From the NCBI RefSeq assembly GCF_028649655.1, contig NZ_JAQSLN010000003.1, positions 806,001-870,000 of the forward strand: a stretch of DNA of 64,000 bases, given 5' to 3'. The stretch comes from Halobacteriovorax sp. GB3 (GTDB taxonomy: Bacteria; Bdellovibrionota; Bacteriovoracia; Bacteriovoracales; Bacteriovoracaceae). The position numbers and the translations under genes are program-made. Below the pieces are notes generated by a model, which was given only the letters and a program-made list of their open reading frames with translations, was not told the DNA's origin and did no database searches. This document shows positions 972-56,603 of this stretch, one piece after another; position 1 is the stretch's first letter, and every line of letters begins with the position of its first letter.

Positions 972-974
972 AAA

Positions 975-1231: not shown

Positions 1232-1265
1232 GACCTGCTTATTTTCGACTAAACCAAACTAATTT

Positions 1266-1295: not shown

Positions 1296-1368
1296 TTTAC
1301 GGGGCTTTTCTGCCTATTTTAAGTACTCGAAATTATTAATTTTTTCTAAAGATTCCTTTGTAAATTTA

Positions 1369-1395
1369 TTGTCAAATTTTATAAGTCGTTATAAT
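1369..1395 (+). promoter_or_regulatory. Promoter giving a near-leaderless tapT mRNA
   Basis: TTGTCA (1369-1374) and a perfect TATAAT (1390-1395), spacer 15. The expected start of transcription is about 1402, only a few bases before the ATG at 1405. No Shine-Dalgarno sequence is present, so translation would be leaderless or nearly so. Confidence 0.5.
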
Positions 1396-1404
1396 CTCTG
1401 GCCC

Positions 1405-1977: not shown

Positions 1978-2189
1978 GCTTTCCAAAGACTGTCCAGATT
2001 TTTTTAAAGTGACCCCCATAAAATTAATTCACAGTTCTCTAAATTTCTTTTTTTTATGAACTCCGTGTTGTACTTACTGTTTTGTGAAAAAAAATGTGAA
2101 TACTTTTTCTGTAAATGACTTTCCAAAAAACAAAGAAACCACTGATTAAGTATGAGTTTTATTTATTACTAAAACGAACAGGAGATAAA

Positions 2190-2651: not shown

Positions 2652-2829
2652 TTTAATATCTGCCTGAAAGTCAATTTATTACAGATAACAATTCGCTAGG
2701 TTTTGATCGGAGCTTAACGAAACAGGGCCAGCACTTAAAAAATTATATTTTAAAACTGGGCGAGAATGACAACTTTTTCGCTCAAACATAAAGACAAAGA
2801 AATTATTAACAAAGTGAATGGAGGATTTT

Positions 2830-3243
2830 ATGAAAAAAGTACTTTTTGGAATTATGATGATCGGTGCAACTCTTTCTTATGGATCAAGTACACAAGATTA
2901 TTTATGTGGTGGGGATTCCGACTATCCAGTAGTAATTACCGTCACTGATGAAGGCATTACGAATTATAAAGATCAATTTAATGAAACAGAATGTAGCAAT
3001 ATGGCCTCTGATGCAGAGATTGCCTCTCAACAGCAAGCAATTAGAAATCAACTTATCAATCCACCTTCAGAAACAGTTAGGGCCGAACTCGAAATGTATC
3101 TAGAGATACTTTTAAATAAACCAATGGCCTGTAAGGAAAAAGATCCGCCTTCTATTGCTTCATTTAATCCAGCAACAAAAATGTTAACAGAGCTTAATAT
3201 GAAGTATCAGAGATTTGAGCAACTGAAGTGCATCAAGCACTAG
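2830..3243 (+). CDS. Small secreted cysteine-containing protein, unknown
   Basis: 137 residues from ATG 2830, preceded by GGAGG at good spacing; a start at 2818 would add four residues without a ribosome binding site. Signal peptide MKKVLFGIMMIGATLSYG. The mature part is acidic and helical in its second half, with four cysteines suited to disulfides, and ends KCIKH. It shares the C-terminal Cys-x(2-3)-Lys-His ending with the next gene, but the two are otherwise not convincingly similar. No family recognised. Confidence 0.65.
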   Translation: MKKVLFGIMMIGATLSYGSSTQDYLCGGDSDYPVVITVTDEGITNYKDQFNETECSNMASDAEIASQQQAIRNQLINPPSETVRAELEMYLEILLNKPMACKEKDPPSIASFNPATKMLTELNMKYQRFEQLKCIKH

Positions 3244-3254
3244 AGAATCGAACT

Positions 3255-3280
3255 AAGTCTGGGCTAAAAGGCTCAGACTT
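3255..3280. other. Intergenic hairpin
   Basis: AAGTCTG and CAGACTT form a 7-bp stem, with GGC/GGCT closing towards the loop. No T-run follows on the plus strand, so it is not a standard terminator. It could be a processing site or a weak terminator for the 2830-3243 gene. Confidence 0.4.
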
Positions 3281-3401
3281 AAAATATAAAAAGAAAAATT
3301 GTTCGAGGAAGCTAGCTTTTTGAATGATGAACTAAAAACCGAAAAATTTATTAACAAAATATGATTTTAAATCATTACTTAAAAATACAAGGAGCCCTCA
3401 T

Positions 3402-3731
3402 ATGAAAAACTTGCTAATTGTACTTACACTTCTATCGACAACTATTTCTTTTGCTTCAGCGGAGTTAAGCAAGACAGATATTAATGATAATCTTCTTCTT
3501 GATGCTGCATGCAAGTTTGAATGTTCTTTAGGATCATTTTCAGGAAAAACTGGTTCTTATTTTCAAAAGAGAGATGTTCAATATAGAGACTTTAGAGGAC
3601 TGACTTTAAAGGAAATCGAATCAAAAAAAGACTTAGCTTGCAGTAGACTTATTGAGCAAGCAGATGAAGAAGGCAGGTTTACTTTATCGAGAGATGAAGA
3701 AAGAATGACATGTAAGTATTTTAAACACTAG
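3402..3731 (+). CDS. Small secreted cysteine-containing protein, unknown
   Basis: 109 residues. Signal peptide (MKNLLIVLTLLSTTISFASA) with ASA cleavage; the mature part of about 89 residues has four cysteines and many charged residues, ending TCKYFKH. Ribosome binding site AAGGAG upstream. Part of the run of four exported small proteins. The sequence ATTAACAAA occurs upstream of both this gene (3350-3358) and the previous one (2805-2813). An imperfect hairpin follows the stop (about 3744-3771). No domain recognised. Confidence 0.65.
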   Translation: MKNLLIVLTLLSTTISFASAELSKTDINDNLLLDAACKFECSLGSFSGKTGSYFQKRDVQYRDFRGLTLKEIESKKDLACSRLIEQADEEGRFTLSRDEERMTCKYFKH

Positions 3732-3907
3732 CTTTCGATTAAGTCTCTGTTTAGAAAGACAGGGACCTTAAACAAAATCCACTTCGATCACGAAAGATCG
3801 TCTTTAAAATCATGGCATGATGAACATTTAACTTAGTAACAAAGAAGTTATAAACACGGTTTAAAAATAAACTATTAGATAATTGACCAAAGATCGAGGA
3901 TAAGAAA

Positions 3908-4300
3908 ATGAAAAGAATTGTTTTAGGATTAACTATATTTTTATCTTTAATTATTTCAGGGACGGCTAGTGCTCAGACCATAAGTAGCCAATTTAAAGCA
4001 GAAAATCCTGCACATGCTGTGACGTGGGCACTTCTTACTTGGGCATCCTCAGATAAAAGAGGGCTAGATTTTGAGCTTACTGAAAATATGAAAGTTAACG
4101 AGTTTATTAATATTAATGAGGAAAACAGTGAATTAAAGGCTGAGTGGTTCACAAATATGCTTGGGCTAGTAAGACCCGTAAAAAGATTCGTTGATTCTGA
4201 TGAAGCCCTGGCGAACTGGATTGAAGTAAACCATATTCATGGAACAGTTAAGGAATTAGCTTTTGAAGTTCAAAGACTCTATGAGATCACTAAGGACTAA
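3908..4300 (+). CDS. Small secreted protein, unknown
   Basis: 130 residues. Signal peptide (MKRIVLGLTIFLSLIISGTASA) and a helical mature chain without cysteines, rich in Trp, Glu and Asn. Ribosome binding site GAGGA upstream. It is closed by a strong rho-independent terminator, so it ends the run of exported small proteins. No family recognised. Because exported products of this type are common in predatory bacteria, an outside or periplasmic role is possible; that is inference. Confidence 0.65.
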   Translation: MKRIVLGLTIFLSLIISGTASAQTISSQFKAENPAHAVTWALLTWASSDKRGLDFELTENMKVNEFININEENSELKAEWFTNMLGLVRPVKRFVDSDEALANWIEVNHIHGTVKELAFEVQRLYEITKD

Positions 4301-4342
4301 AGTTAAATATCTAGTAAGCTTTAAAAATACTTAGACGATATA

Positions 4343-4374
4343 AGAGGCCCTATTTTTAGGGCCTCTTTCATTTT
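4343..4374 (+). terminator. Rho-independent terminator
   Basis: Perfect 9-bp stem AGAGGCCCT / AGGGCCTCT with a 6-base loop, followed by TTCATTTT. It ends the 3908-4300 transcript. Confidence 0.85.
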
Positions 4375-4428
4375 AGGTGAAATCTGATTTTGGATTTGAA
4401 ATTTATGATGACGGAGGGGGATTGGTTT

Positions 4429-4469
4429 CCTTCGTGGTCGTGACTGCGTTGTTCGGCGTCATTTGCCTT
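4429..4469. repeat. 41-bp direct repeat, copy 1
   Basis: Identical over 41 bases to 4539-4579, exactly 110 bases away. The sequence (CCTTCGTGGTCGTGACTGCG and onwards) is far more GC-rich than its surroundings. This copy lacks the second hairpin arm present in copy 2. It lies in a gene-free stretch. Confidence 0.9.
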
Positions 4470-4538
4470 TGGTGGTTGGATTGATTCTATTTTTGTTTTT
4501 TTGATTCTTATGGGGGGGCGACACGTACGCTGTCACTC

Positions 4539-4579
4539 CCTTCGTGGTCGTGACTGCGTTGTTCGGCGTCATTTGCCTT
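4539..4579. repeat. 41-bp direct repeat, copy 2
   Basis: Second copy of the 41-bp unit. Its last 13-15 bases form the left arm of the hairpin at 4565-4595. Confidence 0.9.
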
Positions 4580-4595
4580 CGTGGCAAATGACGCC
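4565..4595. repeat. 13-bp perfect inverted repeat (hairpin with TTCGT loop)
   Basis: GGCGTCATTTGCC and GGCAAATGACGCC flank a 5-base loop. It partly overlaps direct repeat copy 2. No T-run follows on either strand in a terminator arrangement, so this is more like a REP-type extragenic palindrome or an RNA structural element. Confidence 0.8.
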
Positions 4596-4598
4596 TCC

Positions 4599-4696
4599 AA
4601 AAAAAAAGGGAAACCTTGCGGTTCCCCTTCGGTGACGGAGTCAGTATTGATTCCTCAATACTTCGGAGAGATAAAAAGCTGCCATCTTTTTACCTT
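4599..4696 (-). ncRNA. Candidate small RNA with three hairpins and its own terminator
   Basis: Read on the minus strand, about 95-100 bases could fold into three hairpins. The first is GGTAAAAAG/CTTTTTATC. The second is AGTATTGA/TCAATACT with a GGAA loop. The third is AAGGGGAACC/GGTTTCCCTT with a GCAA (GNRA) loop, followed by seven T, which is a textbook rho-independent terminator (4599-4629). Upstream lie TTGATT (4725-4730) and a weak -10 near 4703-4708. No gene ends here on this strand, so the terminator needs another transcript to explain it. The family is unknown; it matches no riboswitch, SRP, 6S or tmRNA consensus I know. The rest of the gap (4301-4945) shows no coding potential. Confidence 0.5.
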
Positions 4697-4702
4697 GCTT
4701 AT

Positions 4703-4720
4703 AGAATAATGAATTATTCT
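4703..4720. promoter_or_regulatory. Inverted repeat over the putative sRNA promoter
   Basis: AGAATAAT and ATTATTCT flank a 2-base centre, overlapping the suggested -10 region of the minus-strand small RNA. It is placed as an operator would be, but it is AT-rich and could be chance. Confidence 0.35.
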
Positions 4721-4929
4721 TCACAATCAACCCCCTCAAGATAAAGATTTCTTGTTCTTAAAGAGCAAAACTCAAGAGTCAGTAAGATAAACAACTGGAA
4801 TTATTATAAAAAGAGACTATTTAATTGGACCAAATATCTCTAAAAAAATATTTTAATAACCAAATAATTGGCGGAAAATTCAGCCTAGTTTTTTTTGCAT
4901 TCAGTCTAAAAGCTAATTCTTTTCAAAAT

Positions 4930-4938
4930 TGATATAAT
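4930..4938 (+). promoter_or_regulatory. Extended -10 promoter giving a leaderless bpt mRNA
   Basis: TGATATAAT is a perfect extended -10 box. It ends 7 bases before the ATG at 4946, so transcription should start at or next to the A of the start codon. No ribosome binding site is seen, which supports leaderless translation. Confidence 0.55.
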
Positions 4939-4945
4939 TAGATCC

Positions 4946-5656
4946 ATGAGAGTATTGCAAGAGCCCCAAATTTCAAAAGAAGAGCCCTGTCCCTATCTGG
5001 ACAATAGGGCCTCAAAACAGCAATTCTTTTTTGCTTTGGATGTTAAAAAAGAAGAGTTTGAATTCTTGCTTGAAAAAGGATGGAGAAAATTTGGTCTCTT
5101 CTATTTCAAACCAGAGTGCGACAATTGCAGAAAGTGCATTCCCTTGAGAGTTTTAGTTGATCAATTTCAAATAAAAAAATCTCATCGTCGAATTTTAAAG
5201 AAAAATAGCGATCTCACTATTAAAATTAGACCTTTAAAATATAGAGATGAAATCTATGATCTCTATGTTAAGCATTCTAAGGAGCGTTTTGTCGATACTC
5301 CCTATGCTAGTAAAGAGTTTTTCATTGATACCCATTTCATTTCTTCAACAGCATCAAATATGATGGAGTATTGGCTCGATGACAAATTGATTGCCTGTGG
5401 CTTTCTCGACTACTCACATATCTCATTAAGTAGTGTCTATTTTATCTACGATCCTGATTTTAAAAAGCGCTCTCTTGGAATATTTGGTGTTCTAAAAGAA
5501 TTAGAGTTAGCATCAGAGCAACAACTCAAATACTACTACCTTGGCTATTGGATCAAAGAAAACTCATTCATGAACTATAAATCTCAATTTCATCCCTTCG
5601 AAATTTTTGATTGGAAAAGTGGTATCTGGAAGGAAATAGGAAAAGAACTGATCTAA
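4946..5656 (+). CDS. bpt: Aspartate/glutamate leucyltransferase (N-degron pathway)
   Basis: Bpt/ATE family, 236 residues, the usual bacterial length. It transfers leucine from Leu-tRNA to proteins with N-terminal Asp or Glu, marking them for ClpS/ClpAP degradation. Family signatures: CPYLDNRASKQQFF near the N-terminus, then a Cys-rich DNCRKCIPLRV stretch and the acyltransferase core (RFVDTPYAS, then LACGF-like and YFIYDP motifs). ATG 4946 is preceded by an extended -10 box and no ribosome binding site. The partner transferase aat lies in the same window at 49874, so both N-degron branches are present. hemN follows 40 bases downstream. Confidence 0.92.
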   Translation: MRVLQEPQISKEEPCPYLDNRASKQQFFFALDVKKEEFEFLLEKGWRKFGLFYFKPECDNCRKCIPLRVLVDQFQIKKSHRRILKKNSDLTIKIRPLKYRDEIYDLYVKHSKERFVDTPYASKEFFIDTHFISSTASNMMEYWLDDKLIACGFLDYSHISLSSVYFIYDPDFKKRSLGIFGVLKELELASEQQLKYYYLGYWIKENSFMNYKSQFHPFEIFDWKSGIWKEIGKELI

Positions 5657-5666
5657 GTCATGTTTA

Positions 5667-5680
5667 ATTGAGCACTCAAT
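5667..5680. promoter_or_regulatory. Palindrome upstream of hemN
   Basis: ATTGAG-CA-CTCAAT, 17 bases before the hemN ATG. It resembles a redox-regulator half-site pair (TTGAx), but the two-base centre is too short for an FNR box. Possible operator for oxygen control of hemN. Confidence 0.3.
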
Positions 5681-5696
5681 AGGCATACTTTTTTTC

Positions 5697-7034
5697 ATGA
5701 ATAATCTGATAAAAAAATACGATATCAAAGGCCCTCGCTATACGAGCTATCCACCCGTCCCGTTTTGGAATGGAGCTCCTAATGAGCAGACATGGCTCTC
5801 ACACATTGAAAGAAGCTATGATGAAAATGAGGGGATAGATCTCTACATTCACATCCCCTATTGCGAAAAACTCTGCTACTACTGTGGTTGCAACAGAACG
5901 ATTTCTAAAAATAAAAAATTATCGACAATTTACACTGAAATGATTCTCGATGAATGGTCACTCTATAAAAGAAAACTTTCAATCGATTTAAAAATTAGAT
6001 CGATTCACTTTGGTGGTGGAACTCCTACCTTTCTCTCCCCTTTAGACTTTGAAAATCTCTTAGGAGAGCTGAGTGAATTCTTTACGACTGACTTCAAAGG
6101 TTCAATTGAAATTGATCCAAGAACTTGCAAAGAAGAACATCTTCAAGTTTTAAAGAAGTATTCTATCAACAGAATATCAATGGGGATTCAAGACTTTGAC
6201 CCTCAAGTGCAAAAGATCATAAACCGCGAACAAAGTTTTGAACTTGTCGAGAAGCTCGTTTGTCAAATGAGAGATTGTGGTTTCGAATCTATTAACTTTG
6301 ATCTCATCTATGGACTCCCGGGGCAAACGACTCAAACAATTTCAGACACGATAGATCAAGTCATCAAGCTCGATCCCGATATGATTGCATTTTATAGCTA
6401 TGCCCATCTGCCAGAGAGAATTAAAAACCAAAAACTTCTTCCTAATGATTTGATCCCTTTCGGTGACAAGAAAAGAGAGCTCTATGAGATAGGTAAAGAA
6501 AAGCTTATCAACTCATCAATGGAAGAAATTGGGCTCGACCACTTTGCAAAGAAAAGTAACTATCTTTGCAAAGTGAAACGAGAGGGAAAACTTTTAAGAA
6601 ACTTCATGGGCTATACAGATAAGAAATCATCAGTTCTCTTAGGATTAGGTGTCACAAGTATCTCAAATACACCATTTAGCTTTGCTCAGAATGAAAAAGA
6701 GATAAAGGAATACAAGCACGCCTTAGAAGAAGGTGTTCTCCCTCTTTTTCATGGGCATATTCAAAGTCAATACGATCAGCTTATTGAACGCATTATTCAA
6801 GACATTATGTGCAACGAAAAAGCAAACTTTGAAGAGATTTCAGAGTATCCACATATTGATAAAGTCTTATTTGAGCTAGATCAAATGCAAAAAGACGGCC
6901 TTCTGTTATTAGAAACAATGGCCAAAAAAATAAAAGTCCTCCCTAGAGGAAGGACTTTTCTAAGAAATATTGCAATGTGTTTTGATTCTTATCTGAGAGA
7001 GAGAAAAGAAAATAATTTTTCGAGAACGATTTAG
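5697..7034 (+). CDS. hemN: Oxygen-independent coproporphyrinogen III dehydrogenase
   Basis: Radical-SAM enzyme of heme synthesis that converts coproporphyrinogen III to protoporphyrinogen IX without oxygen. The cluster motif C56-x3-C60-x2-C63-x-C65 has the HemN-type extra cysteine. HFGGGTPTFL (SAM binding), ISMGIQDF and NFDLIYGLPGQT follow in the expected order, and the C-terminal HemN domain (GLDHFAKKSN, then LLRNFMGYT) is intact. 445 residues is normal. It converges with the Kazal gene, sharing 4 bases at the stop codons. A short palindrome upstream may be a regulatory site. Confidence 0.95.
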   Translation: MNNLIKKYDIKGPRYTSYPPVPFWNGAPNEQTWLSHIERSYDENEGIDLYIHIPYCEKLCYYCGCNRTISKNKKLSTIYTEMILDEWSLYKRKLSIDLKIRSIHFGGGTPTFLSPLDFENLLGELSEFFTTDFKGSIEIDPRTCKEEHLQVLKKYSINRISMGIQDFDPQVQKIINREQSFELVEKLVCQMRDCGFESINFDLIYGLPGQTTQTISDTIDQVIKLDPDMIAFYSYAHLPERIKNQKLLPNDLIPFGDKKRELYEIGKEKLINSSMEEIGLDHFAKKSNYLCKVKREGKLLRNFMGYTDKKSSVLLGLGVTSISNTPFSFAQNEKEIKEYKHALEEGVLPLFHGHIQSQYDQLIERIIQDIMCNEKANFEEISEYPHIDKVLFELDQMQKDGLLLLETMAKKIKVLPRGRTFLRNIAMCFDSYLRERKENNFSRTI

Positions 7035-7492
7035 AGATCTGCCCCACACTCACCAGCGTGAACAAAGAGAGCTTTTGCAGCATAAAGGTCACAGCTATTT
7101 GAGTAAGTCACATTTCTTGGCATTGATTTTCCACAAGAAAATTCATCTTCACAAATTTCATTCAATGGTTGACCACAAACAGGAGCATAAATTTCAGGAC
7201 AAACTTGAACTTCTTCTGTTTGGTCAAACCAGTTTTCACACTTTTTAACATCTGTAAGTTCGAATTCACCTTCGCTATTTCTAGCAATTTCATACTCACC
7301 ATTTTCGCAGTTCATTCTTTCAATATATTCATTAGCAAGCTTAATTGTTTCTTCATTATCAGTAACTATCATCTTTTGAATTTTTCCACGAAGCCTTAAA
7401 TCATCAAGAAGGTTTCCTCTAACACTGATAACTTCACCGGCGCGAGCTTGAGTAAAAAGAATTGTTGCTGCTAAAACGATCATTGCTTTCAT
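7031..7492 (-). CDS. Secreted protein with a Kazal-type domain
   Basis: 153 residues with a signal peptide (MKAMIVLAATILFTQARAG). The C-terminal half carries the Kazal serine-protease-inhibitor pattern: C-x-E-x-Y-A-PVCG, a spacer with two cysteines, then TYSNSC, an Ala-rich helix and GEC at the end. Such domains block trypsin-like proteases by a canonical loop. The N-terminal half is an unassigned charged segment. An exported inhibitor could protect the cell from its own or prey proteases; that is inference. It has its own ribosome binding site (AAGGA) and stands alone on this strand. Confidence 0.8.
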   Translation of the reverse strand: MKAMIVLAATILFTQARAGEVISVRGNLLDDLRLRGKIQKMIVTDNEETIKLANEYIERMNCENGEYEIARNSEGEFELTDVKKCENWFDQTEEVQVCPEIYAPVCGQPLNEICEDEFSCGKSMPRNVTYSNSCDLYAAKALFVHAGECGADL

Positions 7493-7649
7493 AAATATGT
7501 CCTTACTTAAAAGTTGGTTTGTTTTTTGTTGAGGTGGGTTTTAGCGAATTTATTTAATTAGTAAAAATTATAATAATTAATCATTTAGTATAAATATTTA
7601 TTATACTAAGGAAGATCTAGAAACAAGATAGCCCTAAGGTACTGATATT

Positions 7650-8585
7650 ATGTTAATTGACCAAGTATCACTTCAAACATTGCGCATCTTTGAGACCGTT
7701 TACAGAGAAAAAACGATGTCCAAAGCAGCAATTTATCTCAATATGACTCAACCAGGGGTCTCTCAGCACATTCAATCTCTTGAAGAGAGCCTTGGAAAAA
7801 AACTTTTTGATCGTCTCGGTCGAAAGTTAGTTCCAACACCCAATGCAAAAGAGCTCTACTCAAGTATCAGGGAAACACTCTTTACTCTGGAAGAAACTCT
7901 TCAGCAGGCAAAGGGTGATCGCGATGAGCTCAAAGGAAAAATTACCTTTGGCCTTCCCATAGAATTTGGGAATAATATCATCCTTCCTCTCATGGCCAAG
8001 TGGTCTAAAAACAATCCACGGGTTCAATTTGAAATCCACTACGGACACGCTAAACAGATGAACGACCTACTCGAAGATGGGCGACTCGATTTTGCGATTG
8101 TCGATAGCTATTCATTTAGCGGAAGAATCAAAACTGTAAATTTATCAAAAGAACATCTTGTTCTTTGTAGCTCACATGAATATATCAGTGAAAAGAAACT
8201 ACCTCAGAAAATGAAATTTAAAAATTATCACGATTTAGATTTTCTTGATTACGTTGAAGGCGCTCCACTTTTGAAACAATGGTTCACTCACCATTACAAA
8301 GGACGTATTCCCAATCTTAACATGAAAGCACAACTGATGGATGTTCAAGGTATCTCGCAAATGATCTCTAAGGGTCTTGGCCTTGGCATTCTCCCCATGC
8401 ACATTGTGAATCGCTTAGAAAAACAAGGGAAGAAATTTGCCATCTTTGAAGGCTCTACCTCCCCTTTATATAATGAAATTAACCTCGCAACTCTCTCTAT
8501 GAAAAGCCAAAGTTATACAACTAGCGATTTTATCAATTATCTTTTAGAATCAATGATTGAAAGGGAAATAAGAATGAACGAATAG
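7650..8585 (+). CDS. LysR-family transcriptional regulator
   Basis: 311 residues: an N-terminal winged helix-turn-helix (LRIFETVYREKTMSKAA, then MTQPGVSQHIQSLEE) and a substrate-binding-like effector domain (ITFGLPIEFGNNIILPL onwards). These regulators sense a small molecule and usually control a neighbouring gene. The CDF transporter starts 8 bases after the stop, so the two form an operon and the regulator may answer to metal stress. The 157-base AT-rich region upstream is shared with the divergent Kazal gene. The effector is unknown. Confidence 0.9.
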   Translation: MLIDQVSLQTLRIFETVYREKTMSKAAIYLNMTQPGVSQHIQSLEESLGKKLFDRLGRKLVPTPNAKELYSSIRETLFTLEETLQQAKGDRDELKGKITFGLPIEFGNNIILPLMAKWSKNNPRVQFEIHYGHAKQMNDLLEDGRLDFAIVDSYSFSGRIKTVNLSKEHLVLCSSHEYISEKKLPQKMKFKNYHDLDFLDYVEGAPLLKQWFTHHYKGRIPNLNMKAQLMDVQGISQMISKGLGLGILPMHIVNRLEKQGKKFAIFEGSTSPLYNEINLATLSMKSQSYTTSDFINYLLESMIEREIRMNE

Positions 8586-8593
8586 GAATCATT

Positions 8594-9496
8594 ATGGGAA
8601 ATGATCATGGACACAATCACAACCATCATGCACATAGTGGTTCTAAAAATATTCTCATCGCTTTTCTTTTAAATTTTACCTTTGCCATCGTCGAATTTAT
8701 TGGTGGACTTTATACTAACTCCATGGCCATTCTCTCAGACTCGCTTCATGACTTTGGAGATAGTATGGCGCTACTTCTTAGTTACTTTATGGAAAAGTAT
8801 TCTAAGAAAGACCCTGATGCTAAATACACTTTTGGCTACAAACGCTTTTCCGTTTTGTCGGCGATGATTAACGGACTTATTCTCTTCTTGGGTTCACTCT
8901 TTGTTATAAAAGAAGCGTTTGAAAGAGTCTTTAACCCCTCCGAGATTCATCAAGAGGGAATGCTCATTCTGGCCATTTTAGGTATTGTAGTGAATTCAAT
9001 CGCAGCATGGAGACTCTCAAAAGATGAAGGCCTCAATCAGAAGATGGTTATGCTTCACTTACTCGAGGATATACTAGGTTGGGTTGCCGTTTTCATTGTT
9101 AGTATTGTGCTCTTTTTTAAACCATGGTTCGTTTTAGATAGTATTCTTTCAATTCTTATCTCCATTCTCATTCTAAAAAATGTTTATAAGAATTTATTGG
9201 AAACGTTTAAAATTCTCCTTCAAAAATTTCCAAATGATTTAGAACTGGATTCAATGGAAAAAGAAATAAAATCTCTAAGAGATGTCATCGATATTCATTG
9301 TATTCAAGGATGGTCACTTGATTCATCTAGCTTCGCTCTCAACTTGCATGTTGTTGCTAAAGATCAATCGACAATCAAAGAAATTGATTCTATTAAAAGA
9401 GATATCAAAGAGATTTTAAAGAAATACGATGTTGAACAAAGCTCAATTGAGTTTGAATCACAAAGCTATCATTGTGATCACTCCCTTAAGAAATAA
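8594..9496 (+). CDS. Cation diffusion facilitator metal exporter (CzcD/ZitB type)
   Basis: 300 residues and six membrane helices. The His-rich N-terminus (GNDHGHNHNHHAH) and the first-helix metal site (LSDSLHDFGDS) are hallmarks of zinc/cobalt/cadmium exporters driven by proton exchange. The site on helix V (HLLEDILGW) is also visible, and a cytoplasmic C-terminal domain ends in a His/Cys pair (YHCDH). It is co-transcribed with the LysR gene. Metal specificity cannot be read from the sequence; zinc is the most likely. The 3' end overlaps the convergent alkB-like gene by 11 bases. Confidence 0.92.
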   Translation: MGNDHGHNHNHHAHSGSKNILIAFLLNFTFAIVEFIGGLYTNSMAILSDSLHDFGDSMALLLSYFMEKYSKKDPDAKYTFGYKRFSVLSAMINGLILFLGSLFVIKEAFERVFNPSEIHQEGMLILAILGIVVNSIAAWRLSKDEGLNQKMVMLHLLEDILGWVAVFIVSIVLFFKPWFVLDSILSILISILILKNVYKNLLETFKILLQKFPNDLELDSMEKEIKSLRDVIDIHCIQGWSLDSSSFALNLHVVAKDQSTIKEIDSIKRDIKEILKKYDVEQSSIEFESQSYHCDHSLKK

Positions 9497-10085
9497 CCTT
9501 TCTAAAAGTTAGATTTATACGGGGGCCGACAGCTTTTTGCGTTTTATTCAATTGATGCTTCCAATGATGCTGAAGAGATCCAAGCATAAGAAGTAGACTT
9601 TTATCTTCTAATTCAATTTCAACTTTCTCAATTCCCTTATTCGTTTTGTGCTTAAGAACAAATTTTCGAGTATCACCTAAAGAAACAGATGCGATAACAG
9701 GGTTTCTACCAAGTTCAGGTTCATCATCACTATGCCAAGAAGCGTAGTCTCTTCCTGTTCGATAGAGATTGCAAAGACAGCCATTGAAATGATGGCCCGT
9801 TTTCTGCTCAACGAGAGATTTAATTTCAAGAAGTGATTTTGTCCACGGTTTTGGACTTAAAGGAATATTAGAATAACCGTATTCAACTCCCTCGTCTCCA
9901 TACCAGGCCTGAAGCCTTGGGACATCGTGAGTCTTCCCATAAAGAGTAATTTGATCTTGGCGCCACTCAATTTGTGAATTCAATAAATCGAAGTAATCAT
10001 CTTCTAAAAAATGGGGATAATAGCGAACTTCACCATCGCGATCTAGAACAATCTTGTAGTCTTCGCTAAGAAATAAATCAATCAT
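9486..10085 (-). CDS. alkB: AlkB-type 2-oxoglutarate/Fe(II) dioxygenase (DNA alkylation repair)
   Basis: 199 residues, resembling the ALKBH2/3 group. These enzymes remove methyl groups from 1-methyladenine and 3-methylcytosine by oxidation. The iron ligands appear in order as H-S-D in ASWHSDDEP and a distal His in the QHHWKHQL region. The 2-oxoglutarate-binding Arg lies in RINLTFRKV near the C-terminus. NLYRTGRDYASWH and VSLGDTRKFVLKHK are close to the family consensus. It is more similar to the short eukaryote-like form than to E. coli AlkB, judging by these motifs. Single gene. Confidence 0.9.
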   Translation of the reverse strand: MIDLFLSEDYKIVLDRDGEVRYYPHFLEDDYFDLLNSQIEWRQDQITLYGKTHDVPRLQAWYGDEGVEYGYSNIPLSPKPWTKSLLEIKSLVEQKTGHHFNGCLCNLYRTGRDYASWHSDDEPELGRNPVIASVSLGDTRKFVLKHKTNKGIEKVEIELEDKSLLLMLGSLQHHWKHQLNKTQKAVGPRINLTFRKVIS

Positions 10086-10125
10086 AGAAGCGAAATACCA
10101 CAGAGATGAGGTTTCTTTAAGCTAT

Positions 10126-10383
10126 TTATTTGTAAGTATCAAGAATGGACGGTCCTTTCTTTTGAACCATCTTTGATGCTTTCTGCTGTAGAAGTTTTAA
10201 TTCCCTATCAGAGATCTTTTTAAGCTTCTTACGGGCCAATTCAGCTTGCTCGGAAGTGATTAGGCCTTGTTTATGCATCATATTGACCATCTCAAGCACA
10301 TCGCCCTTTTTCACTTGGTCACTATTTGCCATGGTGGAAAACGAAATAAAAAGAAAACTTAATAATATAAACAAAATCTTCAT
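10126..10383 (-). CDS. Small exported helical protein, unknown
   Basis: 85 residues from ATG 10383, chosen because a GGAG ribosome binding site precedes it and the signal peptide (MKILFILLSFLFISFSTMA) begins there; the longer frame adds eight charged residues. The mature 66 residues are Lys-rich with heptad-like Leu/Met spacing (EMVNMMHKQGLITSEQAEL resembles an SHOCT-like short helix pair). No cysteines. Function unknown. Confidence 0.6.
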   Translation of the reverse strand: MKILFILLSFLFISFSTMANSDQVKKGDVLEMVNMMHKQGLITSEQAELARKKLKKISDRELKLLQQKASKMVQKKGPSILDTYK

Positions 10384-10488
10384 AACAAACTCCAGCTTTC
10401 TAAACAATTATCACTGACAATTGTCATAAATTGAAGACTAGAACTATTTTCGAGGACTTGCTTTATTGTAAATAAATTTTAGTGCCAA

Positions 10489-11226
10489 CTAATCAAGGAT
10501 CTGTGACAAGAATTCACGAGTTCTCTCATGCTTAGGGTCACCAAAGAAACTCTCAGGCTCACTCTCCTCTAGAATTTCTCCACCGTCCATAAAGATGACT
10601 CTATCGGCAACAAGCTTTGCAAAACCCATCTCGTGAGTTACACACAGCATAGTCATTCCCTCTTTGGCCAAATCAACCATAACATCGAGAACCTCTTTAA
10701 CCATCTCCGGATCAAGTGCTGATGTGGGCTCATCAAAGAGCATTATTTTTGGCTGCATACAAAGAGATCTCGCAATGGCCACGCGTTGTTTTTGACCCCC
10801 CGAAAGTTGCCCAGGGTACTTGTGAGCTTGGTCTGCGATTTTTACTCTCTCGAGATACTTCATGGCGATTGCTGCGGCTTCTTTCTTAGGAGTTTTTTTA
10901 ACAAAGCGAGGAGCTAAAGTTAAATTTTCCAAAATCGTAAGATGGGGAAAGAGATTGAAATGTTGAAATACCATTCCTACTTCTTTTCTAATCCCTTCAA
11001 TATTTTTTAGGTTTTCAGTTAACTCAATATTATCAATTTCAATCTTTCCCTGCTGGTGTTCTTCAAGACGATTTAAGCAACGAATTAAAGTCGACTTTCC
11101 AGAACCAGATGGACCACAAATAACAATTCGTTCGCCTTTTTTAACATCCAGATTAATGTTTTTTAAGACATGAAAATCGTCATACCATTTATTAAGCTCA
11201 CTAACGCGAATGATTGAATCAGCCAT
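10489..11226 (-). CDS. aapP: Amino-acid ABC transporter, ATP-binding protein
   Basis: ATPase of a polar amino-acid uptake system (GlnQ/AapP type). Walker [11 protein letters not shown]-loop VFQHFNLFP, signature LSGGQKQR, Walker [13 protein letters not shown] and the switch His (CVTHEMGFA) are all intact. I prefer ATG 11226 because AAAGGTG sits at the right distance. The GTG at 11235 lies within that ribosome binding site and would overlap the aapM stop. Last gene of aapJQMP. Confidence 0.93.
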
Positions 11227-49887: not shown

Positions 49888-50533
49888 ATTCCCCCCGCTC
49901 GTTCAGGCCGATGAGAATGGTCTCCTCGCAATTGGAGGAGACCTAAGTATTGACTCACTTTTATTGGCCTATATGCACGGAATATTCCCCTGGCCAATTA
50001 ATGATGAATATCCGCTTGCCTGGTTTAGTCCAGACCCAAGAGGTTTAATCGAATTAAAAGATTTTCATCTTCCACGTTCTTTAAAAAAGTTCTTAAAAAA
50101 ATGTGACTATCAGATAACCTATAATCAAGCGTTCAAAGAAGTTATGCTTAAATGCCAAGAACTAACAAATCGAACAGATCAAGATGGAACGTGGATCACT
50201 GAAGAAATTTTAAAGGCCTATCATGATCTCTTTCTAGCGGGATTCGCTTATAGCGTAGAATGCTGGAGTGATGGTGAGTTAATCGGTGGTCTTTATGGTG
50301 TGAAAATTAATCGTTATTTTTCTGGTGAATCGATGTTCTATAGAAAAGAGAATGCATCCAAAGTTGTTCTCTATTCTCTGTGCCAAAAATTGGATGAACT
50401 CGGAGTTGAGTTTCTCGATACTCAAATGGTAACTCCAGTTGTTGCATCTCTAGGTGGTAGAGAAATGGATCGTGATGAGTTTATCAAGCGACTCCAATCG
50501 GCAATTGCCAGACCTTTAGAGAGTGACTTTTAA
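49874..50533 (+). CDS. aat: Leucyl/phenylalanyl-tRNA-protein transferase
   Basis: 219 residues. Adds Leu or Phe to proteins with N-terminal Lys or Arg, creating N-degrons for ClpS/ClpAP. Diagnostic motifs: FPPLVQADENGLLAIGGDL, YMHGIFPWP, WFSPDPRG, QDGTWITEEI, YSVECWSDGELIGGLYG and FSGESMF. I chose GTG 49874, since the family begins just before this FPP motif and GAGG is upstream; the frame could extend to a TTG at 49859. It complements bpt at 4946. Confidence 0.95.
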   Translation: MPILKFPPLVQADENGLLAIGGDLSIDSLLLAYMHGIFPWPINDEYPLAWFSPDPRGLIELKDFHLPRSLKKFLKKCDYQITYNQAFKEVMLKCQELTNRTDQDGTWITEEILKAYHDLFLAGFAYSVECWSDGELIGGLYGVKINRYFSGESMFYRKENASKVVLYSLCQKLDELGVEFLDTQMVTPVVASLGGREMDRDEFIKRLQSAIARPLESDF

Positions 50534-51216
50534 TTTAAAAAAAGGCCCTTTTCATAAAACTTATTCATATCTTTGTGATCGATATTTAATAGAAAAGCTA
50601 ATTTTAAGAGTTGGTTTTTAAAAGACTGTTTCCAAAATCCGTTTTGATGAAATCGAATCGCCGAAGTGGTCGAATAAAAATTTAACATATGCGCTTGATA
50701 GCGTTTATTAAATTTCTGGCTAATTAACGTATCTTCAAAGATCTCCACCTCATCAAAAGAGAGATCACCCATTGCTCTTTGAACAAAGATACAATGATCT
50801 AAATAAAAAACTTCTTTAATCTTTGCTCTTACATTATTTGAATACCAAGAAGTAAAAAGAAGCCCCAGAGACCTTTGATCAAAGCGATGAACAAAACCAC
50901 CCCACATTTGATCAGCGCGAAGTTTTGTTAATTGCAATAACCCCAATCGATCGACAAATGATCTTGGATGGTGAAAGAGAATCACATCGCCACATGCGCT
51001 TTTAAGGGCATGATTCATTTTTATGGCGCGAGAGGGATCTGAAAATTCTAAGGGAGAAAAGCCATAACTTGATATCAACTCACTTGTTCCATCACTTGAT
51101 GAACCGACAAAGAGTATCTCAAATTGGTTACCAAGAGTTTTAAAACTGATCAGGTTCTTTAAAAAGACGGTGGACTCCATCTCATTTTTAAAGGGATAGA
51201 TAATACTAACCTTCAT
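50530..51216 (-). CDS. Family-2-like glycosyltransferase (TIGR04283-like) lacking catalytic Asp residues
   Basis: About 228 residues from ATG 51216. The family pattern holds: VSIIYPFKNE, SRAIKMNHALKSACGDVILF, LDHCIFVQR, then an ED pair (EIFEDTLISQKF). Yet both Asp-rich sites are changed. The first, normally VDGGSTDGT, is VGSSSDGT; the DxD-type HADT becomes HHPR. Transfer activity is therefore doubtful. It overlaps the ferredoxin gene by 11 bases and is the last gene of the complex-I-like operon. Its 3' end overlaps aat by 4 bases on the other strand. Confidence 0.75.
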   Translation of the reverse strand: MKVSIIYPFKNEMESTVFLKNLISFKTLGNQFEILFVGSSSDGTSELISSYGFSPLEFSDPSRAIKMNHALKSACGDVILFHHPRSFVDRLGLLQLTKLRADQMWGGFVHRFDQRSLGLLFTSWYSNNVRAKIKEVFYLDHCIFVQRAMGDLSFDEVEIFEDTLISQKFNKRYQAHMLNFYSTTSAIRFHQNGFWKQSFKNQLLKLAFLLNIDHKDMNKFYEKGLFLN

Positions 51217-51601
51217 CAGACTCACGATCTAAATTAATAATAAACTCTTTATTCTCTCCATGAGAACAAAATGAACTCTCTGTTGAAGAAATAAGGATTT
51301 TATCTGGACAGAAATCGACACAGTCTTGGCAATAAATACACTTCTCTACATCGAGATAGAGATTTGTTTGTTTCAATTCAAGGGCATTCGTTGGACATAT
51401 ATCCACACAGACCTGACAGTCTTTACAATAAAGTGGCGTTTTCTTTTTTGGGATGCCCCTAAAGTCGAGTGAACTTAAAAACTCTGGAGTTCTCTTATTC
51501 TTAGTAACGAGATAAAAGAGATCTCTAAAAAAGAGAATAATTGTCTCTTTGAAAGCTGCTAGAGCACCTCTTTCTTGATAGAGGTCTTTATCTAAAATCA
51601 T
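51206..51601 (-). CDS. NuoI-like ferredoxin with two [4Fe-4S] sites
   Basis: 131 residues. The two cluster motifs are complete: CKDCQVCVDICP and CIYCQDCVDFCP, with the preceding FRGIPKKKTPLY matching the RGxP region of NuoI. The N-terminal 35 residues are amphipathic, as in NuoI and HyfH. These would be clusters N6a and N6b of complex I. The ATG overlaps the stop of the NuoCD-like gene (ATGA). The extra tail after the second motif has one more Cys. Confidence 0.88.
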   Translation of the reverse strand: MILDKDLYQERGALAAFKETIILFFRDLFYLVTKNKRTPEFLSSLDFRGIPKKKTPLYCKDCQVCVDICPTNALELKQTNLYLDVEKCIYCQDCVDFCPDKILISSTESSFCSHGENKEFIINLDRESDEG

Positions 51602-53154
51602 CTATCGACCTCTCTGGTTTCAATTCCAAAGATTGAAAAGCTCGTTGATAGATCAACGAGAGATGCATCTTTAAGAAGTGTCTCTAAAGATTGCAATTGT
51701 GAATATGAAGGCGTTCTAAGCTTCACCATTGCAGGAGAATTCTTAGAAATTGGACCAATAAACATCTGCCCTAACTCTCCGTTGGTCCCCTCTATGGAGC
51801 TATAAAAAAGATCACTCTCAACGACAATTCCCTGTCTGACTTTTTCAATATACTGTTCGCGATCAACTTTTCTTAATTCTTCTAAATCTCTTAAAGGTCC
51901 CGTTTGAGACTCTCCTAAAGGCAGATTATCAAGAACCTGAAGAATAATTTGAATCGACTGAAATATTTCTTCCAAACGAACAAGATAGCGATCGTAATTT
52001 GTACCATTGATTCCTAAAGGGATTTCAAATTGGACTTCATTATAAAAGTAAAAAGGGTCAACTTTCCTAAGATCATAATTAATTCCACTTGATCTTAAAC
52101 TAGGACCAGTAAGGCCATAAGACAAAGCATCTGTTGCCTCGATTTCAAATGTTTTTGTTTTACTCATCCAATGATTAGAATTTGTAAAAGACCTTTTTAA
52201 CAAATGAAGGGACTTGGATAATTCCGATAAAACGCTAAGACACTTTGATATCCAACCAACAGGAAGATCACTACATACTCCACCAAGTTTTATAATACCT
52301 TCTCCATACTGAGACTTATTGTAGGCATTAAATAGTGAATGAATGCTATTTTTGAATCCTAGAAGTTGAAAACTCTCAATATCTACTTTGAATTGACTGA
52401 AAACTCTTTCAAAAACATAGAGATGACCAGAGATTCGCGATAACTCTAAAAGAACCATACGAATGGCCTGAGCTCTTTCAGTAATCGATAGGTTAAGTTT
52501 TAACTCGATGGCATGATACCAACTAAAAGCATACTCAACAGAATAAGGTGCAAAATAAGATTCTAAAAGAGATGGAATTTGAAGGTAGCTCTTAGTACGA
52601 AGCGAGTCCTCTAAAGCTATGCGATGAAATCCTGGCAAGAACTCCAATCGACATATTCGATCACCATCTAATTCAAGACCAATCTTAGCAATATTTTGTC
52701 CATGAGGACCAAGAGGGCCCACTTCCAAATATTCTCTAGACAACTCAATCTCTTCACTTACTGAAAGATCACGCTTAAATCCATTGAGTTCAGGATGCTC
52801 TTTTGAGACAAAGAGTGGACTGAGTTTTTTATGATCAGAAATGATAAATTGATTAACATACTCTCTTTCATACCAGCTCGCACTCGGATAAATATCACTA
52901 ATACTTTCTCGGTAATGATGATTGAGAGGAAATGTCACGATCAACTTTTTATGAAATTCTAAATTAACGAGAACAAAGTAAATTTGAGATTCAAATGTTG
53001 CCACATCGGCCAATTGAATAAATCCATAAGTGTTTTTCAGTTCATAGAAAATGGACTTTTCAAATTGATCGACAGTTAGCTTACTTTGTAGCTCTCCTAA
53101 CTGATACTTTTCTTTAAAACGTTCTTTAAGAGCAGTTTCTAAACTAGCCAACAT
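51598..53154 (-). CDS. Fused NuoC/NuoD-like complex I subunit
   Basis: 518 residues from ATG 53154 (AAGGAG upstream). NuoC part: YPSASWYEREYVNQF and ELNGFKRDL. NuoD part: GPLGPHGQNIAKIGLELDG, LLELSRISGHL, GGVCSDLP, YGLTGPSLRSSGINYDLRK, NGTNYDRYLVRLEE, and the terminal FSIFGIETREVDR. The sequence aligns well to fused NuoCD throughout. The [NiFe] cysteine pairs are absent as expected for NuoD, and the quinone-site loop (normally GPQHPxTHG) is altered. It partners the NuoB-like and NuoI-like proteins. Confidence 0.85.
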   Translation of the reverse strand: MLASLETALKERFKEKYQLGELQSKLTVDQFEKSIFYELKNTYGFIQLADVATFESQIYFVLVNLEFHKKLIVTFPLNHHYRESISDIYPSASWYEREYVNQFIISDHKKLSPLFVSKEHPELNGFKRDLSVSEEIELSREYLEVGPLGPHGQNIAKIGLELDGDRICRLEFLPGFHRIALEDSLRTKSYLQIPSLLESYFAPYSVEYAFSWYHAIELKLNLSITERAQAIRMVLLELSRISGHLYVFERVFSQFKVDIESFQLLGFKNSIHSLFNAYNKSQYGEGIIKLGGVCSDLPVGWISKCLSVLSELSKSLHLLKRSFTNSNHWMSKTKTFEIEATDALSYGLTGPSLRSSGINYDLRKVDPFYFYNEVQFEIPLGINGTNYDRYLVRLEEIFQSIQIILQVLDNLPLGESQTGPLRDLEELRKVDREQYIEKVRQGIVVESDLFYSSIEGTNGELGQMFIGPISKNSPAMVKLRTPSYSQLQSLETLLKDASLVDLSTSFSIFGIETREVDR

Positions 53155-53671
53155 GAGCGCAGACTCCTTTTTCAACTCTCTGATAAAGAAGCTCCATTCC
53201 CTCTAAAATCGCTTTTGAGGAGGGCCTTCCGCCTGGAATGTAGACATCTATCGGAATCAACTCATCACTCCAATAACAAGGGCGTTCACTTGAAAAATGT
53301 GATCTCGTATTTTTTGCACCTACAAAGACGACCCACTTTCGACTAGGCATCTTCTGGTAAATGTCATAAATTTCAGCAAAGAGTGCTTCTGTAATTGGTC
53401 CTCTCACAATGAGGACATCTGCTTCAAAAGCAGAGTCAGACAGAGCAAGAAAAGTTCTAACCTTAGATTTTTTGATCTCACCAAGAAGCCAAGATCCATT
53501 AATTTTGGAAATGCCAAGGGGATCGAGAACTTGAAAGAATGAAAGCCTTTTGAGGCTCATCCAGCGAATCACTTTCTCTTTGAATGTTTTTGGTTCATGA
53601 GTAACCGCGAGTTTTTCCAAAGAATATTGATCTTTGCTAAATCGGGATACTCTATCATCTTGAACGCCCAA
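53144..53671 (-). CDS. NuoB-like subunit lacking all N2-cluster cysteines
   Basis: 175 residues. The fold is recognised by FEADVLIVRGPITEA (residues 82-96), SRKWVVFVGAKN (110-121) and PIDVYIPGGRPSSKA (140-154), which match the NuoB blocks before the cluster. In NuoB these are followed by Cys (GxCA, GCPP) and preceded by a CC pair. Here they read GAKN, GGRP, and no Cys near residue 53. The only two Cys are at 132 and in the tail. Cluster N2 can therefore not bind in the usual way. TTG start with AGGAG. First gene of the operon. Confidence 0.8.
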   Translation of the reverse strand: MGVQDDRVSRFSKDQYSLEKLAVTHEPKTFKEKVIRWMSLKRLSFFQVLDPLGISKINGSWLLGEIKKSKVRTFLALSDSAFEADVLIVRGPITEALFAEIYDIYQKMPSRKWVVFVGAKNTRSHFSSERPCYWSDELIPIDVYIPGGRPSSKAILEGMELLYQRVEKGVCAHVG

Positions 53672-53741: not shown

Positions 53742-55250
53742 TTAAAAGATATAACCATCCTTTAAGTTAATTTTTTCAGGCGAAATGGGGCTCCACGTTA
53801 CATCTTCAGGAAAGATATGCTCATCTCTCTTTTTCTCACAGCTTAACTTCTTACCACTCTCATAAACCCAACTATACATTTTATTGTGACTTCCACCAAT
53901 TCCCGAATCATATTCAATATAACGATAATGAGCACGGTTATTACCTTTATTACCACTCATTACTGTAATACTACGGTCAAAGGCCTTCTCAAGTTCCTCA
54001 TCACTACAAGTATGCAAGAGTGCGCGAGCATTATAGAATTTCTTTCCACTGCTCAGAACAGGGTTTTCAACCCAACTTCCCTTTGAGCAGCTATAGACAT
54101 AACCAAGAGATTCTAGCTGAAAGTAACTAGCAAAATAAGAAAAGAACCAGTGACGCTCAACATCATCGTTAATAGAGCTCATCTGAACAAATTTCGAACA
54201 AGTCATAAATTCTGAACGATATTTCTGATAGAAGTACTTAAAAAACTTATGAAACTTCTTAGCGTGAACGCGAGCAAGTTCCTTCTTACTTCTATTTGCT
54301 TTTATTTCACCGTTATAAACGTTACCTTTGAGTGATGGCTTCTTCGTTAGCTTTCTATATTTACTCTCTTTTTCGCCCTTTCTAATCTTTTCAGTCTCTC
54401 TAATATTTTCTACGTTACTCCAAACATAATCATAAAGAGCATGACAGCTTTTTTGCATAGACCTTGAGCTCTCAAAAGAGAAGATATGATTTGTTCTTGC
54501 GATAAAATCGAGAGTCTTTGTTAAATCCACATCATTGAGCAATCGATAAGCAGGTCTTATCTCCCCGCTCGTTTCGATAGTGGAACCGCGAAAGTTTTCC
54601 ATATAGGCCTTGGCCTTTTCCCAATCAACTTTCTTTTTTAAATCGTCTAAATTTTGAACCTGAGAAAAGGACTCATCTCCATCAATAACGGCATAGAGAA
54701 CCATTCTTGAGAGCCACTTAGAGCGAGAACCGCATGGGAAGCTATCGCAAAATTGCTCAACCCCACCGCCAAGGAGTCTAATTGAGTAAACATTGTCTTT
54801 GTAGCGCTCATATTCATTTAATGCACCCTTCGAAGAGAAGATATAAACTTCTTGCTTCTGACCTAGTTGATCGAGATAGCCAGGGATGAAACCAACTGAA
54901 AAATTTGGAGAGAATAAGTCGCCTCCATATCTTTTCCACGAATCCTCATACTCACAATTTTGAGTCTTCTTATAAAGTGAGCCACTTTTAATATCAAAAT
55001 CATAAATAAAAGGTGAACCCATCGGGGTCATAACAACAGCGTTATAAATATTTTTCGTTTCACTGCTTTCTTTAAAAGGAACATCAAAAAAGGCATTGAG
55101 ACGCATCTCTTTAGTCTGACTGAGATAGCGATACTTTTTATCGACATCAAACCACGTTCCCCTCGGAACACTTTTTCTCAACTTTAATGCCCCGCCTGCA
55201 CAGGCCATTAAAAAAATGCATGAAAGAGTGAGAATTAAAATCCTTTTCAA
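53742..55250 (-). CDS. Large lipoprotein, unknown
   Basis: About 502 residues from TTG 55250 (or 506 from GTG 55262). Lipobox FLMAC follows a short signal peptide. The mature chain is basic, Tyr- and Lys-rich with scattered cysteines and no recognised domain or repeat. The protein is expected to be lipid-anchored in the envelope. It stands 70 bases upstream of the complex-I-like operon on the same strand, but the gap makes co-transcription uncertain. Divergent from the tRNA-Leu gene. Confidence 0.7.
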   Translation of the reverse strand: MKRILILTLSCIFLMACAGGALKLRKSVPRGTWFDVDKKYRYLSQTKEMRLNAFFDVPFKESSETKNIYNAVVMTPMGSPFIYDFDIKSGSLYKKTQNCEYEDSWKRYGGDLFSPNFSVGFIPGYLDQLGQKQEVYIFSSKGALNEYERYKDNVYSIRLLGGGVEQFCDSFPCGSRSKWLSRMVLYAVIDGDESFSQVQNLDDLKKKVDWEKAKAYMENFRGSTIETSGEIRPAYRLLNDVDLTKTLDFIARTNHIFSFESSRSMQKSCHALYDYVWSNVENIRETEKIRKGEKESKYRKLTKKPSLKGNVYNGEIKANRSKKELARVHAKKFHKFFKYFYQKYRSEFMTCSKFVQMSSINDDVERHWFFSYFASYFQLESLGYVYSCSKGSWVENPVLSSGKKFYNARALLHTCSDEELEKAFDRSITVMSGNKGNNRAHYRYIEYDSGIGGSHNKMYSWVYESGKKLSCEKKRDEHIFPEDVTWSPISPEKINLKDGYIF

Positions 55251-55279
55251 TTGACAACCCACTGTTAATGATTCAAAAT
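55251..55279 (+). promoter_or_regulatory. Candidate promoter for tRNA-Leu
   Basis: TTGACA (55251-55256), 17-base spacer, CAAAAT (55274-55279). Transcription would begin about 55286, leaving a short leader before the tRNA. A TATACT at 55283-55288 is an alternative -10 but is too close to the tRNA. Confidence 0.35.
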
Positions 55280-55457: not shown

Positions 55458-56603
55458 ATGTCACATTCAAATAACGATTCACTTTCTAATAAATTTCAAA
55501 TGATGTTTGAAAGGTATTGCTCGTACATTCATTCACTCGAAAAGATTAGCAACAAGGATGTCGACAAGTTGATTCACTTTGAAACAACACTTGAATCACT
55601 CTTAGAGTTCGATGTTTTAAAAGAAGAGAACTTCATTTTTCAAACCCAAAAAGATCTCTATAACCAAGAGAGCTATATCAGCGAGCAACTCAACACTCTT
55701 GCCCTCAACACATCCTTCTTTGAATGGAAAACAATACTTGATCAAATTGAACCCCGCGAGACACTGTGTGACCTTGGATCGGGCTACAGCAAAGGTACAC
55801 TCCTCTCAAACTTACTCGATCAATGGACTGTCCACTCTTTGGAGCTAGTTGAAAGACGAGTTGAAGTGGCAACAAAGGCCCTTAAAAAAGCAACCCATGA
55901 TACAAGTCGAATAAGAGGTTCTATTAAAAGATCAGATCTTTTAAAAGATTCATTTCCAATATGTGATAACTACTTTCTCTATCTTCCCTGTGGAGAACTT
56001 CTCGAACATCTTCTTGATGGCCTAGAGAAATTATCTCAAACTAATAATCTTCAAATTATTGCTATAGAATCTCATGGAGATCTCATCAATACGCTTAAGC
56101 GTTGCTCTTGGTTAGAATTGGATAGATCTATAAAAATGAAGATGCCACGACATGATCAAATGCTCTATTTTTTTAAACCCAGAGAAATCTCCTCTCGCCT
56201 AGAAGAAAAAAGAGAATTAGATAAAAAAGTTAAATCCCTTATTGATGAACTCAATAAAAAAAAGAAAATCAATCTCACTCTTGAACTTGATGAATTTTGC
56301 CAATTAAAAAAACACTCAGATAGCGATACGCAATTAATCATTCAAGACGATGATCATCTATGGCTATGTGACCTTAGCTCCAGTGTTCCCTGTCACCTTG
56401 ATGCGAGACATGTTTACTTGGAATCAACTTATCCAAAAAGAAGATTTCTTCTTTCAAAATGCACGGGACTTCTCATTCCAGATGGAAAATTAAAAAAGAT
56501 TGTGAATGAGAGAAGATTAGAAAATCAAATTAGAAAGATAATTATTGAACCGCAAAAGCTTATTGAATACAAAAATGGGCAAAGAAAAAAGGCCAGCTTT
56601 TAA
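55458..56603 (+). CDS. SAM-dependent methyltransferase-like protein
   Basis: 381 residues. The central region has a class I motif I (LCDLGSGYSKGTLL), a motif II-like acidic end (LELVERRVEVA) and a DNYFLYLPCGE motif IV equivalent. The resemblance is to DOT1-type folds, but only at the core. The N-terminal 95 residues are helical; the C-terminal 150 are charged with no known domain (VPCHLDARHVYLE). Substrate unknown. The stop lies within the terminator of the opposite gene. Confidence 0.65.
   Translation: MSHSNNDSLSNKFQMMFERYCSYIHSLEKISNKDVDKLIHFETTLESLLEFDVLKEENFIFQTQKDLYNQESYISEQLNTLALNTSFFEWKTILDQIEPRETLCDLGSGYSKGTLLSNLLDQWTVHSLELVERRVEVATKALKKATHDTSRIRGSIKRSDLLKDSFPICDNYFLYLPCGELLEHLLDGLEKLSQTNNLQIIAIESHGDLINTLKRCSWLELDRSIKMKMPRHDQMLYFFKPREISSRLEEKRELDKKVKSLIDELNKKKKINLTLELDEFCQLKKHSDSDTQLIIQDDDHLWLCDLSSSVPCHLDARHVYLESTYPKRRFLLSKCTGLLIPDGKLKKIVNERRLENQIRKIIIEPQKLIEYKNGQRKKASF

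Follow-up and report, generated by a model that had tools for sequence, protein, structure and literature searches.

A Halobacteriovorax operon as the probable peripheral half of a second, non-catalytic complex I

A 64,000-nucleotide stretch of the genome of the predatory-type bacterium Halobacteriovorax sp. GB3 (the window; assembly GCF_028649655.1, contig NZ_JAQSLN010000003.1, positions 806,001 to 870,000) carries a minus-strand operon of complex I-like genes. Judged from its sequence and that of its relatives, this operon is probably the peripheral half of a second complex I, termed Nuo2 here, whose genes are split over two loci and which would now be a non-catalytic membrane assembly. That Nuo2 derives from a second complex I is very likely; that it is redox- and pump-dead in the genus of the window is likely, and its retention for a function somewhat less so. 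Redox subunits, ligands of the N2 cluster and pump residues have been lost repeatedly, and the membrane open reading frames (ORFs) and NuoD2 stay intact. Since the electron- and proton-handling parts have worn away but the genes remain intact and ordered, here as in dozens of relatives, a non-respiratory job for the frame is suggested. In the following, the window operon is referred to as locus 1, its genome as G000 of genus g1, and the second g1 genome as G001.

The window operon and a membrane gene cluster on another contig

The operon runs from 55262 to 50530 and comprises five minus-strand genes, the last four of which overlap one another. The first (LP, 53742-55262) encodes a 506-amino-acid (aa) lipoprotein. 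Family searches assigned NuoB2 (53144-53671) to Oxidored_q6 (2.6e-7) and TIGR01957 nuoB (2.8e-15), the fused NuoC-NuoD-like NuoCD2 (51598-53175, with a likely ATG start at 53154 that overlaps the NuoB2 stop) to Complex1_49kDa (5e-49) and Complex1_30kDa (3e-5), and the 2x[4Fe-4S] ferredoxin-like NuoI2 (51206-51601) to Fer4 (2.8e-10). The last gene (50530-51225) encodes a family-2 glycosyltransferase matching TIGR04283 over its full length (4.7e-28). NuoE, NuoF and NuoG are absent from the operon. A preliminary description of this DNA had listed four overlapping NuoB-, NuoCD-, NuoI- and glycosyltransferase-like genes, correctly in position and family, and had omitted LP; its view of a complex I-derived operon built largely from pseudo-enzymes is borne out by the family matches, by the lost motifs detailed below, and by the occurrence of the intact operon in related genomes.

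The G000 assembly (3.62 Mb, 99.8% complete) also contains a canonical NuoB-C-D-I cluster and, on another contig than the window, canonical nuoAHJKLMN. Immediately downstream of canonical nuoN lie seven same-strand membrane ORFs of 113, 329, 156, 81, 493, 316 and 356 aa, whose sizes and numbers of transmembrane (TM) segments fit shortened A, H, J, K, L, M and N subunits and which are accordingly named A2, H2, J2, K2, L2, M2 and N2 (together, A2-N2). In G014, G097, G098 and G020 the same position holds recognizable complex I subunits in the same order, and in G031 it holds A, H, J and K up to the contig end; because relatives carry recognizable subunits at this position, the window operon is read as the peripheral half of a second complex I. 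The linkage of the two loci and the seven-gene order were found in 36 genomes, and most genomes read carry both loci together. These genomes were selected because locus 1 was present or a nuo/mfd region could be located, and they are not a random sample. Profile-profile comparison placed all seven proteins of 11 intermediate genomes best on their own subunit (E 7e-7 to 2e-38). Against these intermediates, the most degenerate set (21 genomes, that of the window among them) gave matches for H2 (2e-11), K2 (2e-6), J2 (3e-5) and N2 (7e-5) and a weak signal for A2.

The preliminary description had further proposed a soluble complex lacking membrane subunits. The absence holds for the window and not for the genome, and solubility is not supported, given seven membrane ORFs in complex I order beside the canonical nuo membrane operon, a linkage seen again and again in the family; a soluble complex without a membrane arm was rejected when a NuoH search turned up further, divergent NuoH genes next to the canonical ones. 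A complete nuo operon elsewhere in the genome, also raised there, is present as far as the canonical B-C-D-I and AHJKLMN sets go, but NuoF is missing from the whole of G000. Its canonical complex I (L052 9110-11914; L055 5543-13276) is likewise without NuoE/F/G, and NuoF is also missing from G001 and G003.

Several neighboring genes were considered as further parts and set aside. A TPR/GYF protein of about 1040 aa and SerS, found downstream of N2, come after canonical nuoN in genomes lacking A2-N2 as well; in L179 (8834-11941) the TPR protein, of about 1035 aa and with a GYF-like N-terminus, lies directly downstream of N2. An ORF of about 360 aa directly after NuoI2 in one clade (L101, L106, L111, L116, L124, L137) is fatty-acid-desaturase-like by sequence and falls outside Nuo2. 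In g24, an ordinary second NuoH close to LP is part of a separate complex I operon. An additional ordinary complex I operon is seen in this genus about 26 kb from LP (L180 of G160, 183-11039; E-F-G-H-I-J-K-L-M-N visible). Two other genes or gene groups were seen close to locus 1: a 381-aa protein in the window (55458-56603), with no family matches and methyltransferase-like by eye, which also occurs near LP in g3 and G001, and, in G053 (L040 74-4786), what looks by sequence like a Na+-NQR operon, with an ApbE-like gene, a few kb upstream. Na+-NQR has been noted in Bacteriovorax marinus (PMC4014512).

Loss of cofactor ligands, pump residues and subunits

NuoB2 of the window has none of the four N2 cysteines: SKIN stands at the region of the CC pair, followed by GAKN and GGRP. 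G001 NuoB2, which shares 38% identity with that of the window, is likewise without all four, and since this second genome is independent the absence is not a sequencing error; together with three g33 genomes, also cysteine-free, it rules out both such an error and a lone occurrence. Across lineages the count runs from four through three (g16, g40) and one (g38) to none (g1, g33, g5, g10, g18, g21, g24, g27, g35, g43, g47). The residues that took the place of the cysteines are lineage-specific and constant within a lineage, being K/hydrophobic, K and GR in g1 and, at the third cysteine, E in all three g33 genomes. Mapped by parsimony on a tree of marker proteins, the loss of N2 ligands or NuoB2 required eight changes, at least four of them forced by well-supported branches, and the exact count is unsure because some tips have incomplete markers. 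The NuoB tree made for the origin of Nuo2 showed long branches. An AlphaFold2 model of NuoB2 (pTM 0.68) found the complex I chains NdhK, PSST and NuoB as its first Foldseek matches (E 1e-9, TMt up to 0.74).

NuoCD2 retains the NuoD core motifs GLTGPSLRSSGINYDLRK and NGELG and the C-terminal DR. Its quinone-site region is altered: the His motif of the His/Tyr region is degenerate in g1 and g33, with some residues still alignable. The CxxC motif pair that binds NiFe in the large subunit of group 4 [NiFe] hydrogenases is absent from the NuoCD2 sequence. Among the membrane subunits, the pump residues (NuoK Glu36/Glu72, the TM5 Glu, the TM7 Lys and the acidic Glu cluster of NuoH) are gone in the degenerate lineages, that of the window included, with the calls for L and M depending on alignments that are unsure. 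In g14, every checked residue of H, K, L, M and N is complex I-like.

The glycosyltransferase has lost both of its Asp motifs. The first reads VGSSSDGT in the window and VDGGSTDGT in g3 relatives; at the second, where GT2 enzymes have a DXD-type motif, the window has LFHHPRS, and this motif is lost in g3 too. Of the loci read, those of the window genome and genus g3 alone have a glycosyltransferase at this operon position. NuoI2 of the window keeps all eight cluster cysteines, as does that of g33. What had been noted from the window alone, an N2-free NuoB-like protein, an eight-cysteine NuoI and a motif-less glycosyltransferase, thus agrees with the alignments and the motif comparison.

The full set of NuoI2 cysteines in g1 and g33, preserved despite the loss of N2, is what would be expected if NuoI2 were still redox-active in the window's genus, accepting electrons from ferredoxin or flavodoxin and passing them to a partner other than N2 for storage, sensing or a non-quinone acceptor. 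We consider this improbable. The cluster cysteines are lost in g5, g12, g24, g21, g35 and g47, the nuoI2 gene is absent in g15, g19 and g25 although CD2 stays, and the operon offers no candidate alternative donor or acceptor. Electron storage, a role suggested in the preliminary description, is therefore conceivable in g1 and cannot be general, because several lineages have lost the NuoI2 cysteines or the gene.

The gene order of the operon recurs in relatives, as LP-B-CD-(E-F-G)-I, in about 20 genera, mostly beside aat. Locus 1 reads LP-B-CD-E-F-G-I in g14 and g31, and in g6 with diverged E, F and G; it reads LP-B-CD-I in most genomes, LP-CD in G012, g15, g19 and g25, and LP alone in G007, G018 and G030. 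Nuo2 is a normal complex I in a few genera, two of which have E, F and G; G014 and relatives combine E/F/G with every key residue that was checked. The lineages form a loss series that proceeds from E/F/G to N2, B/I, CD and finally everything. The membrane cluster is reduced to five or six genes in G005, G013 and G025, and eight of the genomes read (G002, G007, G018, G024, G032, G047, G143, G160) have no A2-N2 at the usual site. In G025 the canonical membrane arm is apparently degenerating too (L158 2384-5612), with an L of 94 aa and divergent M and N.

Retention of the genes and competing explanations

All seven membrane ORFs are intact in the 36 genomes with the complete cluster. In a neutral simulation none of 500 runs kept all seven open, even at 0.1 substitutions per site. 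Moreover, canonical NuoB and NuoH were undetectable in five genomes with Nuo2 (G010, G112, G036, G015, G011; completeness 87-99%), in all of which A2-N2 directly adjoins mfd; the retention of Nuo2 thus does not depend on canonical complex I. This independence and the open ORFs favor a function. They also bear on a further role put forward in the preliminary description, that of a regulator, assembly factor or decoy for canonical complex I, perhaps forming hybrids with its membrane arm. The membrane half being encoded directly downstream of the canonical operon would fit such a role, which is nevertheless highly unlikely, since Nuo2, which has membrane subunits of its own, is still found where canonical NuoB/NuoH could not be detected (at least five genomes, there with A2-N2 beside mfd).

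Several observations weigh against a second complex I that is kept for a function. None of the seven G000 membrane proteins matched the complex I Pfam models, and in the most degenerate set L2 and M2 gave no profile signal even against the intermediates, so that the identity of these two rests on synteny, size and TM count. Furthermore, g24 and g47 possess B2-CD2-I2 with no A2-N2 at the usual site. These points would suit an explanation in which, in the degenerate genomes, the hydrophobic ORFs that follow canonical nuoN have nothing to do with the window operon, and the operon encodes a soluble N2-free module. We regard it as very improbable, given the unmistakable NuoA, H, J and K (and L, M and N) at the same positions in the five relatives named above, the intermediates that bridge them to the degenerate set, and the co-occurrence of the loci.

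The remaining adverse points concern rates and LP. Between the two g1 genomes, nonsynonymous divergence (dN) is about 0.75-1.0 for A2-N2 versus 0.05-0.15 for the canonical subunits (roughly 0.9 against 0.1), about 8-10 times faster; in g14 the rates of the two sets are about equal. Over 11 genomes the mean pairwise identity of A2-N2 is 15-18%, close to zero sequence constraint, compared with 29-39% for LP, B2, CD2 and I2 and 67-82% for the canonical membrane subunits. For B2 and A2 of the most closely related g3 pairs, the ratio of dN to synonymous divergence (dS) is about 0.1-0.2; otherwise it is mostly uninformative, because dS is saturated for most pairs. LP outlives the rest of Nuo2 in G007 and G018, and in G030 it is by itself at its locus; its tie to the complex may therefore be genomic only.

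Very weak constraint on the membrane subunits and repeated complete loss keep slow decay alive as a rival. A redundant Nuo2 would then be dying in parallel, its remains functionless, and selection would only purge toxic truncated membrane proteins. The stepwise loss series, the rapid evolution of the membrane subunits, the five- and six-gene clusters and the total loss in some genomes are all in line with this. We nonetheless judge decay unlikely: the ORFs have stayed open far past the neutral expectation, with the seven-gene cluster complete in 36 genomes, Nuo2 is retained where canonical complex I is lost, and the replacement residues of NuoB2 and the NuoD motifs are conserved.

If Nuo2 is indeed kept for a function, LP may be part of it. 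LP reached no Pfam or NCBIfam family. Its lipobox cysteine C21 is invariant in a 17-genome alignment, and its AlphaFold2 model (pLDDT 82, pTM 0.81) adopts the fold of family I inorganic pyrophosphatases (Foldseek E 8e-9, TMt 0.75). The catalytic aspartates are absent, the DGDPxD motif being replaced (GDPLD to gqpqk) in the sequence and the family alignment, and LP differs from the soluble enzymes in being an exported lipoprotein with large helical and Cys-rich additions. Of the 129 family genomes, 109 carry it, and outside the family it is nearly absent; a profile scan with an 8-row LP alignment returned 22 named loci, among whose carriers are Bacteriovorax sp. BSW11_IV, Bacteriovoracaceae metagenome-assembled genomes (MAGs) and Halobacteriovorax MAGs. 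As modeled, LP is an undescribed, family-wide lipoprotein family with a pyrophosphatase fold that has lost its catalytic Asp residues. The linkage of their genes suggests that LP may bind the Nuo2 complex.

On this basis a mechanism can be sketched. The Nuo2 assembly would still form, with electron transfer no longer coupled to pumping. The non-catalytic frame would hold the periplasmic LP, the seven membrane subunits and cytosolic NuoCD2, with or without B2 and I2, and might span the inner membrane as a scaffold, a gate or a relay of signals. A trans-membrane scaffold or relay that includes LP is a tentative proposal, as is the wider notion of a complex I-framed machine with no redox or pumping chemistry, carrying a pseudo-pyrophosphatase and serving as a structural or signaling device, which would have arisen stepwise, with the steps still on view in living genera.

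Relation to known complexes and significance

Nuo2 resembles complex I (NDH-1 with fused NuoCD) in its subunit set, in the gene orders B-CD-(E-F-G)-I and A-H-J-K-L-M-N, in the NuoB and NuoD folds and, for the G014 type, in the full set of checked key residues. It differs in being split over two loci, in its lipoprotein, in shrunken membrane subunits (L2 493 versus 727 aa, M2 316 versus 510 aa) and, in g1, in the loss of E/F/G, N2 ligands and pump residues. The 11-subunit photosynthetic NDH-1 and Fpo-type complexes also do without NuoE/F/G, but they retain N2 as well as the pump residues and are active, whereas g1 Nuo2 has neither. Group 4 [NiFe] hydrogenases and Ehr-type complexes (FHL, Mbh, Ech) share homologs of NuoB, NuoD and NuoI and antiporter-like subunits, and Ehr illustrates that ligand loss is possible in this superfamily; in contrast to them, Nuo2 groups with complex I in sequence and subunit set, and its best matches among solved structures are complex I chains. 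The glycosyltransferase scores 98 bits against the 182-bit cut-off of TIGR04283, below the family threshold despite the full-length match. The open literature, with subscription papers outside the search, contained no description of the Nuo2 system, and NADH, complex I and Nuo all go unmentioned in a comparative study of predatory Bdellovibrionota (PMC11656739).

The usual view of complex I is that of a conserved coupling machine. Within this one bacterial family an entire paralog can be traced from the intact enzyme to a form that has no NADH module, N2 or pump residues; each step has its intermediates, and the genes are still open. If Nuo2 is functional, the frame of complex I could be recruited for something besides energy conversion, and the family would offer natural variants for asking which parts assembly alone needs. 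The gene set is small and can be tested in cultivated Bacteriovorax and Halobacteriovorax.

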